From an uncultured Ruminococcus sp. (lineage in GTDB: Bacteria; Bacillota; Clostridia; Oscillospirales; Acutalibacteraceae): DNA of 13,456 nt. Shown piece by piece: positions 6,473 to 13,367 of the stretch. The translations under genes were made by a program, and so were the position numbers. Position 1 is the first letter of the stretch. Each line of letters opens with the position of its first letter. Below the pieces are notes generated by a model. The model worked only from the letters and a program-made list of their open reading frames with translations. It searched no databases and had not been told where the DNA came from. The stretch spans positions 1-13,456 of the forward strand of contig CACYBZ010000314.1 in NCBI GenBank assembly GCA_902772795.1, given 5' to 3'.

Positions 6473-7582
6473 TCAAAGTCTGCGTAGTGCTTTCCATGTT
6501 CTCACGGTGTCTTTCCGTTTGACTGTCAGGGCTCTGCCCAGGCGGTAGAAAAACAGAAAGGGAAGCAAAAATTTGTGTCGGTAAAAAAACGGGTGATACT
6601 CCCTGACTTTAGCCATCGGCAAAAATAATCTGTTTTTGATGAACATTCGCTTTGCTTCAGCACGACTGCTACCGCACTCTTTCATATTTTTATTCAGAAT
6701 ATTGTTTATATTACCGTATGCCCCTGAAAAAATCATATATTCCAGCATCTTTTCCGCCTCAGCGTCCAGTGCCTCCCCGTTAAACAGGTGAAAAGCAATC
6801 TGTCTGTTCTTCTGTTCAAACAGGTCAATCCCCATTTTTGCGGTTTCCCTGTCAATATACGCCTTGTCGAGTGTACTGCCCTTTTTCTTCCAGAAAACAT
6901 AGGTGTCCATTACATAACGCAGACCTGTTCCGCTACCGTAATAATGGCGGAATTCATGGGCAATCAGATAAATATACAGGTCTTCATCGCTGAAATGATA
7001 ACCATATCCGTTGTCACTGTCTTTGATAATACGTTTCTGTACATCGTGATAATACTCATACAGTTTATCCTGATCCGATTTTCCGAACAGTTCCGTGTGC
7101 ATTTCAAAATTGCTGACAGGCGGTTTGTGATAATCCTTTCCCAGACTTTTACAGGTAAACCCCTGCTCTTTCATAATCCGCTTTACCTGTTTTTCGCATT
7201 TGCCGTCATACAGAATGTCAAAATCCGCCATCTGCCGCATACCGATATACGGATAAAAGTCCTTGATGACAATGCCTTTCAACGGCATATAGCGTATGTG
7301 TTCCGCCTCAAAACGGGAAAAAAGTATTATCTTCTCCATTTCCATGGTAGACACTCTGCTGATAGCCTTGCCCTTTTCTTCCAGAAAACGACTGTCTGCC
7401 ATGCCGACAGCCTCCAGTCCGCAACAGACAATCGCTGTGAGCATGTGATATCTTGCCACCGAGTAAAGCTGTTCAAGACTGAGTTGTTCCACACGGGCCT
7501 TGTCGGGAACGTCACCATTGATGACACAACGGATAAGATAAATCATTTCGTCCGTTATCTTTCTGTATTCCTGTTCCGTCAT
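6473..7582 (-). CDS. Uncharacterised nucleotidyltransferase family protein (NTP_transf_5-like)
   Basis: The 369-residue product resembles the uncharacterised nucleotidyltransferase family often found near PqqD-like and peptidase genes (Pfam NTP_transf_5, from memory). The core is PLKGIVIKDFYP (100-111), in which LKG takes the place of the usual GS/GG motif, then MRQMADFDILYD (115-126), where D120 and D122 form the expected metal-binding DxD. EMHTELF (160-166) and HEFRHYYGSGTGLR (209-222) are further conserved-looking blocks. The C-terminus (318-369) is basic and aromatic with a hydrophobic PFLFFY stretch, perhaps membrane-associated. Substrate and reaction are unknown. The start at ATG 7582 is set by GGGAGTG five bases upstream, which overlaps the TGA of the preceding peptidase gene (4-base gap), so the two are translationally linked. 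Confidence 0.85.
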   Translation of the reverse strand: MTEQEYRKITDEMIYLIRCVINGDVPDKARVEQLSLEQLYSVARYHMLTAIVCCGLEAVGMADSRFLEEKGKAISRVSTMEMEKIILFSRFEAEHIRYMPLKGIVIKDFYPYIGMRQMADFDILYDGKCEKQVKRIMKEQGFTCKSLGKDYHKPPVSNFEMHTELFGKSDQDKLYEYYHDVQKRIIKDSDNGYGYHFSDEDLYIYLIAHEFRHYYGSGTGLRYVMDTYVFWKKKGSTLDKAYIDRETAKMGIDLFEQKNRQIAFHLFNGEALDAEAEKMLEYMIFSGAYGNINNILNKNMKECGSSRAEAKRMFIKNRLFLPMAKVREYHPFFYRHKFLLPFLFFYRLGRALTVKRKDTVRTWKALRRL

Positions 7583-7586
7583 TTTT

Positions 7587-8081
7587 TCACTCCCTGTCCT
7601 GCTCAACGTAGTTCTTCTGCCATCGGTTATGTTTCTTTGTACGACTTCTGCCAAAAAGCCTGTGTAATCTGACAAGAATTTTCTTCAATGGAATACGTAT
7701 TTTCGTCGTGTGCAGCCAGATAAAGGAATACAACCGATAACCCTTTTCATTGACGCTGTGTTCCTTGCCGTTACGGATAAACCCCGTCATGACACCAAGA
7801 ATATCCTTATCTGTAATGCCGTATTCCTTTCCGACACAATTATCCCCCAGAATGACATAATCCTGTTCCCTTACCTGAATGACACGATGCAGAACATAAG
7901 CAGACGGCGGTCGGCGGTACAAAACCACATCACCAACCTGACAACGCTTATTTTCTTTCTTTTTCAGGATAAACATATCTTTTCCCTGACGCAACAACGG
8001 CAACATACTTACTCCGACATTCGTATAAGTCAGACTGCCGTATCGTTCAAGGTATTCTTCATAGTTCGACGGATTAGTCAT
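7587..8081 (-). CDS. S24/S26-family (signal peptidase I-like) serine peptidase with Ser/His dyad
   Basis: The 164-residue product has a compact signal-peptidase-like fold. GVSMLPLL (23-30) gives the nucleophile S25. VGDVVLYRR (49-57) and YVLHRVI (62-68) put H65 where bacterial type I signal peptidases have the general-base lysine, as in SipW and ER-type enzymes. YVILGDNC (75-82) matches the conserved GDN box. No N-terminal membrane anchor is present; the C-terminal third (118-150) is basic and amphipathic. It may cleave a leader or signal peptide of a product handled by the neighbouring genes, which is inference. I took the ATG at 8081, which overlaps the pqqD-like gene by 8 bases; a GTG at 8090 is an alternative adding three residues. 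Confidence 0.85.
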   Translation of the reverse strand: MTNPSNYEEYLERYGSLTYTNVGVSMLPLLRQGKDMFILKKKENKRCQVGDVVLYRRPPSAYVLHRVIQVREQDYVILGDNCVGKEYGITDKDILGVMTGFIRNGKEHSVNEKGYRLYSFIWLHTTKIRIPLKKILVRLHRLFGRSRTKKHNRWQKNYVEQDRE

Positions 8082-8334
8082 CAATCGCACCGATTTCTCT
8101 TAACTGACTGACAGTAGTAACAACGTCATTCCGTATAACCTCGTCTGATGCGTCATAGCGTTCTTTCATGTTGCTGATAATTTCTTCTGTCGTCATACCT
8201 TTCTGGAGCAAATCCAGAATCACCCCAAGCGTAACATTTCCCCTGACTACACCTGAAAACTTTGCTTTTCCGCTGGGTACAATAATAGTTTCATTTGCCG
8301 TCTTGTGTACAAGAAAATTTTTGTTGAGTTTCAT
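8074..8334 (-). CDS. PqqD-like protein (peptide-recognition/RRE fold)
   Basis: The 86-residue product matches the PqqD family in size and pattern: a short N-terminal strand region, then a helical part with LGVILDLLQKGMTTEEI (36-52) and a C-terminal helix ending VSQLREIGAIDD (75-86). PqqD-like domains bind leader peptides of ribosomally made, modified peptides and present them to enzymes. Here the partners would be the S26 peptidase and nucleotidyltransferase encoded directly downstream. The start at ATG 8334 follows AAAGGAT about nine bases upstream. The upstream gap of 209 bases to ftsL holds a 12-bp inverted repeat. No symbol is given because nothing else of a PQQ pathway is present. Confidence 0.82.
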   Translation of the reverse strand: MKLNKNFLVHKTANETIIVPSGKAKFSGVVRGNVTLGVILDLLQKGMTTEEIISNMKERYDASDEVIRNDVVTTVSQLREIGAIDD

Positions 8335-8441
8335 CTTTCATTATCCTTTCTTTACTTTGCCACAGATATAACCGTGAGCCTCAAAAACATATTTCTTAAA
8401 ATACTGTCCGTTTTTTTACCCCAAAACAGTCAAAAAATAAT

Positions 8442-8496
8442 GGTTGTAACAAATCAAATTTTCCTCCGTTTCCTCTCTGATATGTTTGTTACAACC
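8442..8496. promoter_or_regulatory. Perfect 12-bp inverted repeat upstream of pqqD-like gene
   Basis: GGTTGTAACAAA (8442-8453) is exactly complementary to TTTGTTACAACC (8485-8496), with a 31-base spacer. On the minus strand it is followed by a T-rich run (8432-8440), so it could be a long-loop terminator after ftsL. Alternatively each arm holds its own short palindrome, TTGT-A-ACAA and TTGT-T-ACAA. Their centres (8448 and 8490) are 42 bp apart, about four helical turns, as expected for paired operator sites. The spacer holds a GGAGG (8463-8467) on the coding strand. I see no good promoter beside it. Confidence 0.6.
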
Positions 8497-8543
8497 GCTT
8501 TCTTTTTTTATTTCTGTATACAGTATATGTCCGTTGTCCGATA

Positions 8544-10158: not shown

Positions 10159-10204
10159 CTTTCCCTCCCTCTCCTCAGAATACAGCGTGATGCTATCGGA
10201 TTTC

Positions 10205-10233
10205 ATTATATGCTTTCCTGACGTAAATTGCAA
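10205..10233 (-). promoter_or_regulatory. Sigma-A type promoter for rsmH
   Basis: On the minus strand TTGCAA (10228-10233) and TATAAT (10205-10210) are 17 bases apart, with a perfect -10 box. It lies between the terminator at 10303-10345 and the rsmH ribosome-binding site, about 47 bases before the start codon, so it begins the dcw transcription unit. Confidence 0.88.
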
Positions 10234-10302
10234 GTACAATCCGCATATCTTTTGAGAAAACAAATCCATTGCAGTCAATGTCCCCAAAAACGGACAACAG
10301 AC

Positions 10303-10345
10303 AAAAAAACAACCGTACAGCACGCTTTTTTTCTGTGCTGTACGG
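10303..10345 (-). terminator. Intrinsic terminator after the VanY-type gene
   Basis: An 11-bp perfect stem pairs CCGTACAGCAC (10313-10323) with GTGCTGTACGG (10335-10345), with an 11-base loop. On the minus strand TTG and then seven T follow (10303-10309). It begins 22 bases after the stop codon at 10368 and separates the mscL-VanY unit from the dcw block. Confidence 0.9.
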
Positions 10346-10367
10346 TGAAATGTGGTATGTATTTCCG

Positions 10368-11330
10368 TTATTGCAATTTTACTGCTATGATAAATCCGTC
10401 ACAATTATTGCCGTAAATCTGATATTCGCTGTCCCTGGGAACCTGTACCATCGTACTTTCTCCCAACTGTGACGGCACATAGTAAATCATCCATGATGTT
10501 GCCGTGTAATCGGTGGTATATAACGGGTTCTTGATGGTGTGGGTTTTCAACATTTCAATGTACTCCTCCAGACAAAAACCGTTCTGCATGATATATTCCG
10601 AATGGGGCAGTCCCACATAACGGTAATGCCATGTTTCATAGCCTATTCCTGTGACGGCTACTTTATCCTGAGGATAGCGCAGAATAAAACCATACTTTCC
10701 GCAGTTGTTCTTCAGCCAGCGGAACTCCTCACCTTCCCCCAGTACCGATAAATCTTCATCGTCCATAATGGAAAGGTCAAAAGCATATCCTGTCTGATGT
10801 TCACTATACCCCGGTAACAGTACGTATTCTGCCCCGATGTAGTCTTCACCTTTTTCCTCTTTGTCTGCCTGATAGAGTTTTTCCTGCAGTTCCTTGCTCC
10901 GATAGGCACTGTGTATCATGACATTGCTATTTTCCGAAACGTCACAAAGTGCCGAAAGCATATTTTCCGCTTTCTGAGCAACGGTTTCATTGAGCTTTAC
11001 GTCCAAATCCGCCACCTTGAATTTTCCGTTACCCCTGCCGTATATTTCCACAAGGTTATCGCCCTCGAAAGAACACGGATAATTGTTGTTGACCAGTATC
11101 AGAAATCCGCTGTTCAGACGGTCATTTTTCATCTCTACGTCAACAAAGTCACTTTGAATATCCAGATTGGTCACATTCGGCAAGGAACTGATGATAACTT
11201 TCTTGCTTGCCATGACAGACCCTATATTCGCAGAAAAAATAAGAACAAAGGCTGTCGCACTCAGGTAAATGAAAAATACTAAGGCAACCAACAGCGGATA
11301 TTTTTGCTTGATATTCTCCGTAACTGACAA
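10368..11330 (-). CDS. VanY-type zinc D-alanyl-D-alanine carboxypeptidase, membrane-anchored
   Basis: The product should remove the terminal D-Ala from peptidoglycan stem peptides outside the cell. It has a short cytoplasmic start, one membrane segment (about 12-34) and an extracellular VanY (peptidase M15) domain at about 115-265. SAYRS (141-145), SEHQTGYAFD (176-185) with zinc ligands H178 and D185, and ETWHYRYVG (232-240) with probable catalytic E232 and ligand H235 are all present. About 55 residues follow the catalytic core and are unassigned. The start is a TTG at 11330: AGGAGG (11340-11345) lies nine bases upstream and the next in-frame Met would delete the membrane segment. Being chromosomal beside cell-wall genes, it is more likely a housekeeping carboxypeptidase than a vancomycin-resistance determinant. 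It may be co-transcribed with mscL, 54 bases upstream. Confidence 0.93.
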   Translation of the reverse strand: MSVTENIKQKYPLLVALVFFIYLSATAFVLIFSANIGSVMASKKVIISSLPNVTNLDIQSDFVDVEMKNDRLNSGFLILVNNNYPCSFEGDNLVEIYGRGNGKFKVADLDVKLNETVAQKAENMLSALCDVSENSNVMIHSAYRSKELQEKLYQADKEEKGEDYIGAEYVLLPGYSEHQTGYAFDLSIMDDEDLSVLGEGEEFRWLKNNCGKYGFILRYPQDKVAVTGIGYETWHYRYVGLPHSEYIMQNGFCLEEYIEMLKTHTIKNPLYTTDYTATSWMIYYVPSQLGESTMVQVPRDSEYQIYGNNCDGFIIAVKLQ

Positions 11331-11384
11331 CAGCTTTATCCTCCTTTGACGCTGTAAGTCGTCTTTATTCTGTCGGACAGTAAA

Positions 11385-11873
11385 TTATGCTTTCTTCTCC
11401 GCAGAAATCTCAGCAACGACTTCTTCATAACCTTCCAGAATGGAGGTACAATGAGGACATCTTGTTGCTTCAATAGCGATTTCACTCTTACAGAAAGGAC
11501 ATTCTTTGGTCGTTGCTTCTTCCTCTTCTTCTTCCTTCTTCTTGCCGATGGACATAATCTTGTTGATTCCTTTTACCAGCAGGAAAATAATCAACGCCAT
11601 AATCAGGAAATTAATGACGGCAGTAATAAATGCACCGTACTTAATTTCTACTGCCGAACCAAGTACGCCTTCAACAAGTGATGGGAATTCAATCTTGAGG
11701 GATAACTGGTCAAAGTTTATCTTCGTGAACAATCCCAGAATGGGCGAAATAATATTGTCCGTCAAAGATGTGACAATGTTCTGAAACGCAGCACCGATGA
11801 TGACAGCTACTGCCAGATCAAGAACATTACCTTTCATGATAAATTCTTTGAACTCACCAAAAAACTTTTTCAT
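11385..11873 (-). CDS. mscL: Large-conductance mechanosensitive channel MscL with C-terminal zinc ribbon
   Basis: MscL opens at high membrane tension and releases solutes after hypo-osmotic shock. The N-terminal amphipathic helix FGEFKEFIMKGNVLDLAV (5-22) runs into TM1 (about 16-44), followed by an extracellular loop (45-78) and TM2 (about 79-101). After an acidic linker KKKEEEEEE, two cysteine pairs, CPFC (125-128) and CPHC (139-142), form a predicted zinc ribbon absent from the E. coli protein, which brings the length to 162 against 136. The start at ATG 11873 is preceded by GGTG at eight bases. A consensus promoter lies at 12030-12058, giving a leader of roughly 150 bases in which I recognise no known riboswitch. 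Confidence 0.95.
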   Translation of the reverse strand: MKKFFGEFKEFIMKGNVLDLAVAVIIGAAFQNIVTSLTDNIISPILGLFTKINFDQLSLKIEFPSLVEGVLGSAVEIKYGAFITAVINFLIMALIIFLLVKGINKIMSIGKKKEEEEEEATTKECPFCKSEIAIEATRCPHCTSILEGYEEVVAEISAEKKA

Positions 11874-12029
11874 TTCTACAACACCAACCTCTTTACAAAA
11901 ATTTATGATAAGCCGAGTAAATATACATAAGTGTATTGTTTTACGGATAATCTGCCGTTACGAGCAAATGGTAAAACTTTTTACGGAATTACATACCTCC
12001 CCCGATGTACTTACCCTGACTACCTTTTC

Positions 12030-12058
12030 ATTATAAGCCAAAACCATCTTGATTTCAA
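12030..12058 (-). promoter_or_regulatory. Sigma-A type promoter for mscL
   Basis: On the minus strand TTGAAA (12053-12058) and TATAAT (12030-12035) are separated by 17 bases. It lies 37 bases after the tyrS stop codon; no clear terminator for tyrS precedes it. Confidence 0.88.
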
Positions 12059-12094
12059 CAAAAACTTCATATTTTATTATGGAAATTTGTCGCT

Positions 12095-13315
12095 TTACAT
12101 CATAACTTTGTGGAATACTTTCTTTCCCTTTTTGATGACGATGCCTTTGACAATTTCTTCTTTGGTGATGCTGGTTTTCACGTCGGTAATCTTTTCGCCG
12201 TTGACGGAAATTCCTCCCTGTGTGACAAGTCTTCTGCCCTCTGCATTGGACGATGTCAGTCCTGCTCTGGCAAGCAGATTCAGAATACCGATAACTCCGT
12301 CAGTGAAATCTTCTTCGGCAAGTGTACTTGTCGGCATATTTTCTTCTTCGGCATTGCTGGAGAACAATGCTCTGGCGGTTTTCTGTGCTTTTTCCGCTTC
12401 TTCTTCTCCGTGAACCAGCTTTGTCAGCTCATAAGCCAGAATTTCTTTGGCTTTGTTGAGTTCACTGCCCTGCCAGCTTTCCATTTTCCTGATTTCGTCC
12501 ATCGGCAGGAATGTCAGCATTTTGATACATTTGATAACGTCACTGTCATCGACATTCCGCCAGTACTGATAGAAGTCGTAAGGACTGGTCTTTTCGGCTG
12601 AAAGCCATACTGCTCCCGACTGCGTTTTTCCCATTTTCTTACCTTCGGAATTGAGTAACAGATTGATGGTCATCGCATACGCATCTTTGCCCTGTTTTCT
12701 GCGGATAAGTTCTGTTCCTGCCAGCATATTGCTCCACTGGTCGTCACCGCCGAACTGCATATTACAGCCGTATTGATTGTACAGAACATAAAAGTCGTAT
12801 GCCTGCATTATCATGTAGTTGAATTCCAGAAAACTCAGCCCTTTTTCCATACGCTGTCTGTAACATTCTGCTGTAAGCATTCTGTTGACGCTGAAATGTG
12901 CCCCGACTTCTCTGAGCATACCTACATAGTTGAGGTCAAGCAACCAGTCCGCATTGTTGACAAGCATGGCTTTTCCGTCAGAAAAGTCGATAAAACGGCT
13001 CATCTGCTTCTGAAAACATTCTACATTGTGCTGTATGACTTCTTTTGTCATCATCTGACGCATATCCGTTCTGCCTGACGGGTCGCCTATCATAGCTGTT
13101 CCGCCTCCGATTAAGGCTATCGGCTTGTTGCCTGCCATCTGCAACCGTTTCATCAGACACAGTGCCATGAAATGTCCTACATGCAAACTGTCGGCTGTCG
13201 GGTCAAAGCCAATGTAGAATACTGCTTTCCCTCCGTTGACAAGTTCCCTGATTTCCTTTTCGTCCGTAACCTGTGCGAGTAATCCTCTTTCGACAAGTTC
13301 TTCATAAACTCCCAT
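12095..13315 (-). CDS. tyrS: Tyrosyl-tRNA synthetase
   Basis: This is a class I aminoacyl-tRNA synthetase that charges tRNA-Tyr. The 406-residue product has [15 protein letters not shown] (34-48) with the HIGH-type motif HVGH, the tyrosine-pocket region around GGDDQWSN (189-196), the KMSKS-type loop KMGKT (227-231) and a C-terminal S4 RNA-binding domain (about 341-405). The start is the ATG at 13315: a perfect AGGAGG (13322-13327) lies seven bases before it, and the in-frame TTG at 13333 would place that ribosome-binding site inside the gene. Many Firmicute tyrS genes carry a T-box leader; here no T-box motif is seen, and a three-hairpin repeat begins about 50 bases upstream. No promoter is evident between that repeat and the gene. 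Confidence 0.98.
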
Positions 13316-13367
13316 ATTTGTTCCTCCTGACAATAAATCTAAGGGCTGTCCCCCGATTGTGTTTTAC

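Follow-up and report, generated by a model that had tools for sequence, protein, structure and literature searches.

A PqqD-like, S26 peptidase and nucleotidyltransferase cassette inside the cell-division cluster of an uncultured Ruminococcus is probably part of a scattered LPP-like peptide pathway

What are a PqqD-like gene, an S26-type peptidase gene and a nucleotidyltransferase gene doing between ftsL and the class B penicillin-binding protein (PBP) gene of a division and cell wall (dcw) cluster? The question arises in a stretch of 13 456 nucleotides from an uncultured Ruminococcus sp. (contig CACYBZ010000314.1 of assembly GCA_902772795.1; hereafter the window). Comparison with related genomes leads us to conclude that this cassette very probably represents lppB, lppS and lppN of an LPP-like (linear polyphosphorylated peptide-like) pathway for ribosomally synthesized and post-translationally modified peptides (RiPPs), the genes of which are scattered in its own genome. 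That confidence applies to the pathway as a whole, each single step being graded lower, and the result would be a known kind of pathway in a new arrangement. A puzzling PqqD/peptidase cassette in a cell-division cluster would then be explained as part of a split operon and not as a division factor. The reference system is the lppAKBSDN pathway of Paenibacillus alginolyticus (Popov et al., May 2026; PMC13381572), for which the main text describes LppB as a RiPP recognition element (RRE) binding a YxxP leader, a SipW-like LppS that cleaves in vitro only with LppB, and an LppK that phosphorylates core Ser3. The module and the peptides reported below were worked out before that paper was found. 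The features concerned are:

8334-8074 (-): PqqD-like RRE, putative lppB homologue, 86 amino acids (PF05402, E 2.5e-10)
8081-7587 (-): S26-type leader peptidase, putative lppS homologue, 164 amino acids from its ATG (NCBIfam archaeal-type signal peptidase I)
7582-6473 (-): PF14907 nucleotidyltransferase, putative lppN homologue, 369 amino acids from its ATG (PF14907, E 4.2e-35)
9080-8544 (-): ftsL/DivIC-like gene, left flank of the insertion (family scans; position kept in relatives)
6319-4037 (-): class B PBP, SpoVD/PBP2x-like with PASTA, right flank of the insertion (family scans and order in relatives)
8432-8506 (-): hairpin with a T-run next to it, immediately beyond ftsL; probable terminator that sets the cassette apart from ftsL (repeat search and folding)

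The original prediction had described three linked genes of these kinds between ftsL and the class B PBP gene, and open reading frames (ORFs) and family scans confirm both coordinates and families. The predicted spacing is likewise present on the sequence: PqqD runs 8 bases into S26, whose ATG lies ahead of the PqqD stop, and 4 bases separate the end of S26 from the nucleotidyltransferase ATG. The 8-base overlap is also present in 27 of the 43 relatives' loci that allowed both genes to be located. None of the three ORFs has an internal stop and substitutions relative to other genomes fall mostly at third codon positions, the codon-position pattern of selection; the three genes are real and intact. 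The PqqD-like protein reaches 40.9 bits against PF05402 (cut-off 23.4) and 19.7 bits against the PQQ-biosynthesis equivalog TIGR03859 (cut-off 46), and its best NCBIfam matches are lasso PqqD models, all below cut-off. It is 60 and 63% identical to the copies of two relatives and keeps N33 and D70 at the positions of LppB leader-binding residues, and its family profile matches LppB (PDB 9x8z) at E 1.4e-5 along with TbiB1, TfuB1 and PbaB1 (9x90). For the S26-type peptidase a Pfam scan gave zero matches, and the NCBIfam match has an E-value of 3.7e-11 at 43.2 bits, under the cut-off of 51.85. Its S25 and H65 are invariant in 20 of 20 aligned sequences, as is D80, which could be the counterpart of the catalytic Asp (D93) of LppS. 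The AlphaFold model (pLDDT 89) has human signal peptidase, UmuD and LexA as its top fold matches, all weak (best E 3.1e-3), and PDB sequence matches include SEC11. The nucleotidyltransferase, scanned against PF14907 as the longer ORF 7675-6473, has invariant D120 and D122 (in the stretch MRQMADFDIL) in 10 of 10 aligned sequences. Its fold is of the nucleotidyltransferase superfamily with weak nearest PDB matches (best E 7e-3), from which donor and acceptor cannot be read, and a PDB sequence search with this protein found zero relatives.

Operon kinship becomes apparent in other genomes. A survey with three S26 proteins against one genome per species produced 58 loci, in records titled mostly Ruminococcus, Clostridia or Clostridiales, and Lachnospiraceae, many of them from the rumen. 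With numerous rumen metagenome-assembled genomes among its near kin, the window probably derives from a rumen Ruminococcus-like organism too. Counting genes within 3.5 kb on the same strand, S26 is accompanied by PqqD at 43 loci, by an HprK-like kinase at 42, by an ABC exporter at 35 and by the nucleotidyltransferase at 19; the full set of four partners occurs at 15 loci, a set of three at 14, two partners at 13, a single one at 11 and none at 5, with loci taken as they are, contig ends included. The commonest order is HprK-like kinase, PqqD, S26, ABC exporter and nucleotidyltransferase, and another order, PqqD-nucleotidyltransferase-kinase-S26-ABC exporter, occurs in L053, L135 and L144. The module kinase retains a P-loop and an N-x-D-K-P motif. 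Three such kinases scanned against NCBIfam scored 29-32 of 125 bits for ScmC and at most 25 of 200 for HprK_rel_A, below the cut-offs. Pieces of the S26 module also occur in records titled uncultured actinobacterium (L113:7001-9147) and Eggerthellaceae (L141:2010-2738), where binning errors are possible; Popov et al. describe LPPs as confined to Bacillota (PMC13381572).

The original prediction had also proposed a search for short conserved peptides near other copies of the genes, and an all-against-all comparison of small ORFs near the module brought out one family, with 20 ORFs in 19 loci, the other large cluster being PqqD itself. Eighteen of the 20 lie upstream of kinase, PqqD and S26 matches on the same strand. 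A profile built from 17 members has matches in 18 of 60 relatives (E ≤0.05) and in 40 of 197 genomes of the order (E ≤1e-3). The candidate peptides are 32-64 amino acids long, with a YxxP leader ending in ...EDVITTS and a variable acidic tail. The leader consensus of 52 peptides is Y..P.[IML]E[IV][IV]EF[ED].ED[VI]ITTS, with Tyr in 46 of 51, Pro in 30 of 51, Glu in 43 of 52, Phe in 41 of 52, Asp in 52 of 52 (the anchor) and Ser in 45 of 52, in an alignment that has three evidently mis-anchored rows and includes some near-identical peptides. Beyond the leader motif the information content falls to about 1 bit, and many residues are acidic. Scans of the 17 peptides gave zero matches in Pfam and one chance-level hit in NCBIfam (E 0.088), and a direct PDB search with one peptide returned only two matches (E 0.16-0.18). 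Judged from the motif strings and residue numbers printed in PMC13381572, the Tyr-Pro spacing equals that of LppA and the Tyr-Ser distance is 19 versus 18. The window's own genome has two, perhaps three peptides, a strong match on contig C349 (E 2.4e-10), a weaker one on C79 (2.8e-4) and a marginal one on C457 (0.028). At L098:1200-1772 about 50-60 bases separate a peptide gene from the S26 gene downstream of it, on a fragment with no kinase or PqqD match. Near peptides in four loci (L100:4644-6005, L104:326-1717, L113:4406-5809 and L153:5249-6679) we also noticed a related protein of 453-476 amino acids, two of the four showing by eye a SPASM-like cysteine pattern; it is perhaps an extra tailoring enzyme.

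Peptide and kinase travel together. At thresholds of E ≤1e-10 for the kinase and ≤1e-3 for the peptide, the kinase is found in 56 of the 197 genomes, the peptide in 40 and both in 38 (Fisher 2e-24, kinship among the genomes being ignored). The association remains (Fisher 4e-20) after dropping eight genomes that supplied profile rows or are the window's own, where only named sources could be recognized among the genomes. In the first set of 60, S26 is present in 16 of 18 peptide genomes, and 9 of 25 S26 genomes are without the peptide. Only 12 of 64 peptide matches lie within 6 kb of a kinase match; the other 52 are more distant or sit on a different contig, three of them in two kinase-free genomes. 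We consider it likely that the LPP-like enzymes act in trans on dispersed peptides. The prochlorosin system, in which one enzyme serves scattered precursors, is a precedent for such action. Popov et al. searched for precursors within 5 kb of the cluster (PMC13381572). Dispersed LPP precursors, for which other names are possible, find no mention in the open-licence literature consulted, including the main text of that paper.

The machinery itself is also split in the window's own genome, an assembly of 480 contigs (84.6% complete, 6.6% contamination) with four PqqD-family matches, four nucleotidyltransferases and the window S26 as the only match of its kind. Contig C184 opens with the final 34 codons of a kinase, which share 68% identity with the kinase of G002, a member of the same genus; about 60 bases further on come the exporter and a nucleotidyltransferase, with nothing where PqqD and S26 usually stand in relatives. 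Judged by sequence, the window (B-S-N) and C184 (the end of K, then D-N) together make up a full lpp set. G002 is also scattered, with kinase-PqqD-S26, the kinase being complete, on its contig C29, a nucleotidyltransferase alone on C50 and a best exporter match that is 29% identical; in G001 the five genes stand together (L053). Splitting is thus seen in two members of the genus, all assemblies being drafts in which contig ends intervene. In a first tree the nucleotidyltransferases of the window, C184 and C251 formed one clade (100/99), with the fourth copy of the genome, on C112, far off. When the G002 copy was added it fell weakly beside that of the window (87/79), which has the longest branch in the clade of four (0.66 versus 0.36-0.46). 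Reciprocal loss after duplication of one operon, leaving B-S-N in the window and K-D-N on C184, would fit the gene content and the first tree; the weak grouping of the G002 copy leaves the timing of duplication and loss unfixed, so reciprocal loss is not claimed.

Several other loci contain members of these families. A distinct nucleotidyltransferase paralogue, 51-53% identical to the C112 copy, occurs at L236:6663-7862 and L237:3644-4861 with the same downstream neighbors, which look like ispD and ispF, in G001 and G005. On contig C12 of the window's genome (L043:4252-5600), a second PqqD-like gene, preceded by a 316-amino acid protein of unknown kind, is followed by a radical-SAM-like gene (27% identical to a radical SAM protein, cysteines seen by eye), perhaps another RiPP-like locus. 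The genome's best PF05402 score, 59.6 bits, belongs to a PqqD-like gene divergent from an ABC exporter on C193 (L039:3980-6165).

Taken together, the components of the LPP pathway, namely an RRE, a Ser/His peptidase, the set of kinase, exporter and nucleotidyltransferase, and a precursor of the right type, all have counterparts by sequence, not all in one cluster here, and membership of the enzymes in an LPP-like pathway is well supported. Kinase, exporter and peptides are present in the same genome as the cassette. Leader binding, phosphorylation of core Ser3 and cleavage with the RRE have been demonstrated for Paenibacillus only, and we infer by analogy that they occur here in trans. By this scheme short precursor peptides would be made at other loci, and the PqqD-like protein would bind their YxxP-type leader. 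The HprK-like kinase (C184/C327) would phosphorylate the near-invariant Ser behind ...EDVITT, which in the candidates would be the phosphate acceptor, with the cut falling shortly before it. The PqqD-like protein would present the substrate and the S26 peptidase would remove the leader. The nucleotidyltransferase may extend the phosphate with another group, possibly a nucleotide or a sugar, and the MsbA-like exporter of C184 would carry the product out. The suggestion in the original prediction that the cassette processes a peptide encoded elsewhere thus gains support from the peptide-maturation operon of the relatives and the matching peptide family.

Several observations weigh against this assignment. 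The candidate leaders are unlike the published one: they have Px6F and not Px9F, they lack HQ and FET, and they do not follow the consensus YxxPxVLxHQxIxFETxxS. We regard that consensus as a property of the published set and not as defining, and what we propose from sequence is an LPP-like system with a variant leader. The best peptide of the window's own genome, on C349, has the Tyr and Ser and carries Thr for the motif Pro; those on C79 and C457 have YxxP. In the window PqqD-like protein, F74 of LppB is replaced by Thr, and the lasso RREs TbiB1, TfuB1 and PbaB1 outscore LppB against the same PqqD profile. The C184 kinase consists of its last 34 codons only, at a contig edge, the full-length kinase on C327 is diverged (34%), and PqqD or S26 could lie beyond the end of C184 in this draft genome. 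The kinship ignored in the co-occurrence test counts here too, as do the two genomes with a peptide and no kinase (G099 and G130) and the 18 of 56 kinase genomes without a peptide at threshold. Finally, LppN had no detectable activity in the heterologous host used for the Paenibacillus pathway (PMC13381572).

The dispersed peptide genes often follow genes for very large proteins. We took 40 peptide loci away from the module, 39 of which gave 42 peptides above 18 bits, and for 36 of the 42 a same-strand ORF ends at most 300 bases upstream. This upstream ORF has at least 700 amino acids in 21 of 36 cases; among the remaining same-strand gene pairs of these loci, which serve as control, 11 of 127 reach that size (Fisher 1.5e-9). 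A crude hydrophobicity criterion assigns a secretion-signal-like N terminus to 19 of the 36 upstream ORFs and to 25 of the 127 controls (1.6e-4). For those 20 loci that were taken only once the pattern had emerged, with the same control, the counts are 7 of 17 (1.3e-3) for size and 11 of 17 (2.5e-4) for secretion-like N termini. Exceptions upstream of peptides include an ABC transporter (L188), metabolic-looking proteins (L202 and L208), and short ORFs or none. In the window's own genome the C349 peptide begins 17 bases after a 1744-amino acid alpha-amylase/CBM26 protein and the C457 peptide 8 bases after a protein of 2097 amino acids; the C79 peptide comes after an ORF of 147 amino acids, close to the end of its contig, with similarity to the C-terminal part of the protein (2776 amino acids or more) that precedes a G002 peptide. 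Other large neighbors have leucine-rich repeat (LRR), subtilase, Big_2 or SdrD-like domains, and some have no Pfam domain. One relative available in culture, Ruminococcus flavefaciens ND2009, has all five module genes and a peptide gene after that of a 771-amino acid LRR protein (L135). Several of the proteins before peptides in L056, L059, L096, L098, L100, L101 and L174 have similar C termini, by eye roughly RAYVxYxDANGNxxTxYG, with no obvious anchor.

We tentatively suggest, as a possibility we rate below even, that LPP-like peptides in these Clostridia are small partners of giant secreted proteins (amylase/CBM26, BspA-type LRR, subtilase and others), matured and exported in trans by one shared, sometimes split lpp machinery, and that outside the cell the acidic peptide, phosphorylated and perhaps glycosylated, associates with the big protein or serves as its anchor. 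The biological role of LPPs is called unknown in the Discussion of PMC13381572. The partnership would be a new clue to their function and, if true, their first biological role, testable as a modified peptide on the giant protein. If precursors are dispersed behind genes for giant secreted proteins, substrate prediction must cover whole genomes and not only the surroundings of the cluster.

The position of the cassette appears to be particular to this strain. With rsmH as a probe for dcw clusters we found a match in 54 of 60 relatives and took 20 clusters, one of which ends after ftsL; among the 19 readable ones are four from the window's own genus (G001, G002, G004 and G005). The gap between ftsL and the PBP gene is 42-447 nt in all 19, compared with a cassette of 1.86 kb, and the PBP gene directly follows ftsL in 18, an unassigned 192-amino acid gene occupying the ftsL position in L095. 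Conversely, dcw genes were found near S26 in none of the 58 relatives' loci within the DNA examined. The hairpin at 8432-8506 has a folding energy of -18.5 kcal/mol (z -4.5), lower than that of every one of 200 shuffles, and the same stem with a variable loop, read by eye, follows ftsL in G001, G002, G004 and G005; a simple terminator scan limited to loops of 3-8 did not list it. The short gap in all 19 relatives and the genus-conserved hairpin between ftsL and the cassette make division control unlikely, and we regard the location as an accident of insertion, a functional link with division being unlikely.

The minus-strand gene order of the window is tyrS, mscL, vanY, rsmH, ftsL, PqqD-like, S26-type peptidase, PF14907 nucleotidyltransferase, PBP, mraY, ftsW and murG, with the names tyrS, mraY, ftsW and murG assigned by reading and from the gene order of relatives. 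Upstream of rsmH (10200-13333), vanY, mscL and tyrS are the same in G002, and several relatives have there a gene of 139-148 amino acids, presumably mraZ. Hairpin aside, only short two-copy repeats and short inverted pairs surround the cassette, and a promoter scan of the window was uninformative (7 found versus 5.5 expected). In agreement with the original prediction, the ORF list of the window shows no precursor-like peptide, radical SAM enzyme, cyclase or pathway transporter gene.

Other explanations have been weighed against an LPP-like role. That the dcw cluster governs the three genes and that their substrate belongs to the envelope or to division, as the original prediction had also proposed, would suit their location and shared orientation within the cluster; we consider it extremely improbable, given that the ftsL-PBP site is used in none of the 19 dcw clusters or 58 S26 loci of relatives, that a genus-wide hairpin follows ftsL and that the relatives' copies of the module have other genomic surroundings. 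The prediction had added that a functional unit would be unlikely if only this strain had the genes here and they did not co-occur; the location was indeed seen in this strain alone, with the order ftsL-cassette-PBP absent from all relatives compared, and the genes do co-occur, as parts of the larger operon. An artefact of assembly, with the cassette joined to the dcw cluster in silico, comes to mind with 480 contigs, 6.6% contamination and a junction found in no second genome. The flanking genes, however, both belong to dcw and are ordered and oriented as in G002, the breakpoints lie between genes, the G+C content at third codon positions of the cassette (0.40-0.51) resembles that of five neighbors (0.42-0.50), and close kin of its PqqD and S26 occur in the same genus and near relatives, making an artefact very improbable.

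Decay, with the cassette as a disused remnant of an lpp operon, is likewise unlikely in our view. In its favor, neither kinase nor exporter accompanies the cassette, and its nucleotidyltransferase, which has paralogues in the same genome, is the one with the longest branch; against decay stand the lack of stops, the third-position-biased divergence, the conserved residues retained, the preserved 8-base coupling and the standing of its S26 as the only one of its type in the assembly. Membership in a lasso-peptide pathway, where a B1-like RRE, a kinase and an NTP transferase are also found as tailoring genes, would agree with a PqqD profile that scores best against TbiB1 and TfuB1, with lasso PqqD models as the best (sub-cut-off) NCBIfam matches and with the precedent of PsmK and PsmN (PMC9266682). 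We rejected it because the B2 peptidase (PF13471) has 0 matches in the window's own draft genome. The leader, moreover, has YxxP and not the WxxP of paeninodin, and the published cyclase-free lpp set (PMC13381572) fits better, a cyclase not having been searched for in the relatives' loci; PF00733 (Asn-synthase fold) has four matches in the own genome, all on contigs other than the window's. A lasso pathway is thus quite improbable.

Among known systems, HPr-rel-A (TIGR04352/04353) and SynChlorMet (TIGR04249/04248) likewise combine, by their model names, an HprK-like with a PqqD-like protein, but the three module kinases scanned are far under their cut-offs and do not qualify as members. The paeninodin/pseudomycoidin lasso system resembles ours in an HprK-like PsmK and a nucleotidyltransferase homologue PsmN that act on a peptide Ser, and in a discrete RRE; it has a lasso cyclase and a B2 peptidase, in place of which S26 is found here (PMC9266682). 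For the suggested link to giant proteins, maturation of the gamma-subunit (QhpC) of quinohemoprotein amine dehydrogenase (QHNDH) offers an analogy, with no homology claimed: there a secreted enzyme has a small subunit that undergoes modification in the cytoplasm and trimming by its own dedicated protease, and that an ABC transporter exports for assembly with the other subunits. The QHNDH system (QhpC/QhpD/QhpE/QhpF) differs in its radical SAM crosslinks and subtilisin-like protease (PMC7876137). The closest likeness is to the LPP pathway itself (PMC13381572). The relatives' module has the same five enzyme families in the same order (lppK-B-S-D-N), comprising a discrete RRE, a SipW-like peptidase, an HprK-like kinase, an MsbA-like exporter and an NTP transferase, and the candidate peptides share with the published precursors a short length, a YxxP-type leader, a conserved Ser and a variable C terminus. 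The leader center differs, with EF..EDVITTS here and HQxIxFETxxS in LPP. Unlike the published pathway, the machinery here is split, with B-S-N in the dcw cluster and K-D-N elsewhere, and 52 of 64 precursor-like genes lie away from the kinase, many of them behind genes for giant proteins.

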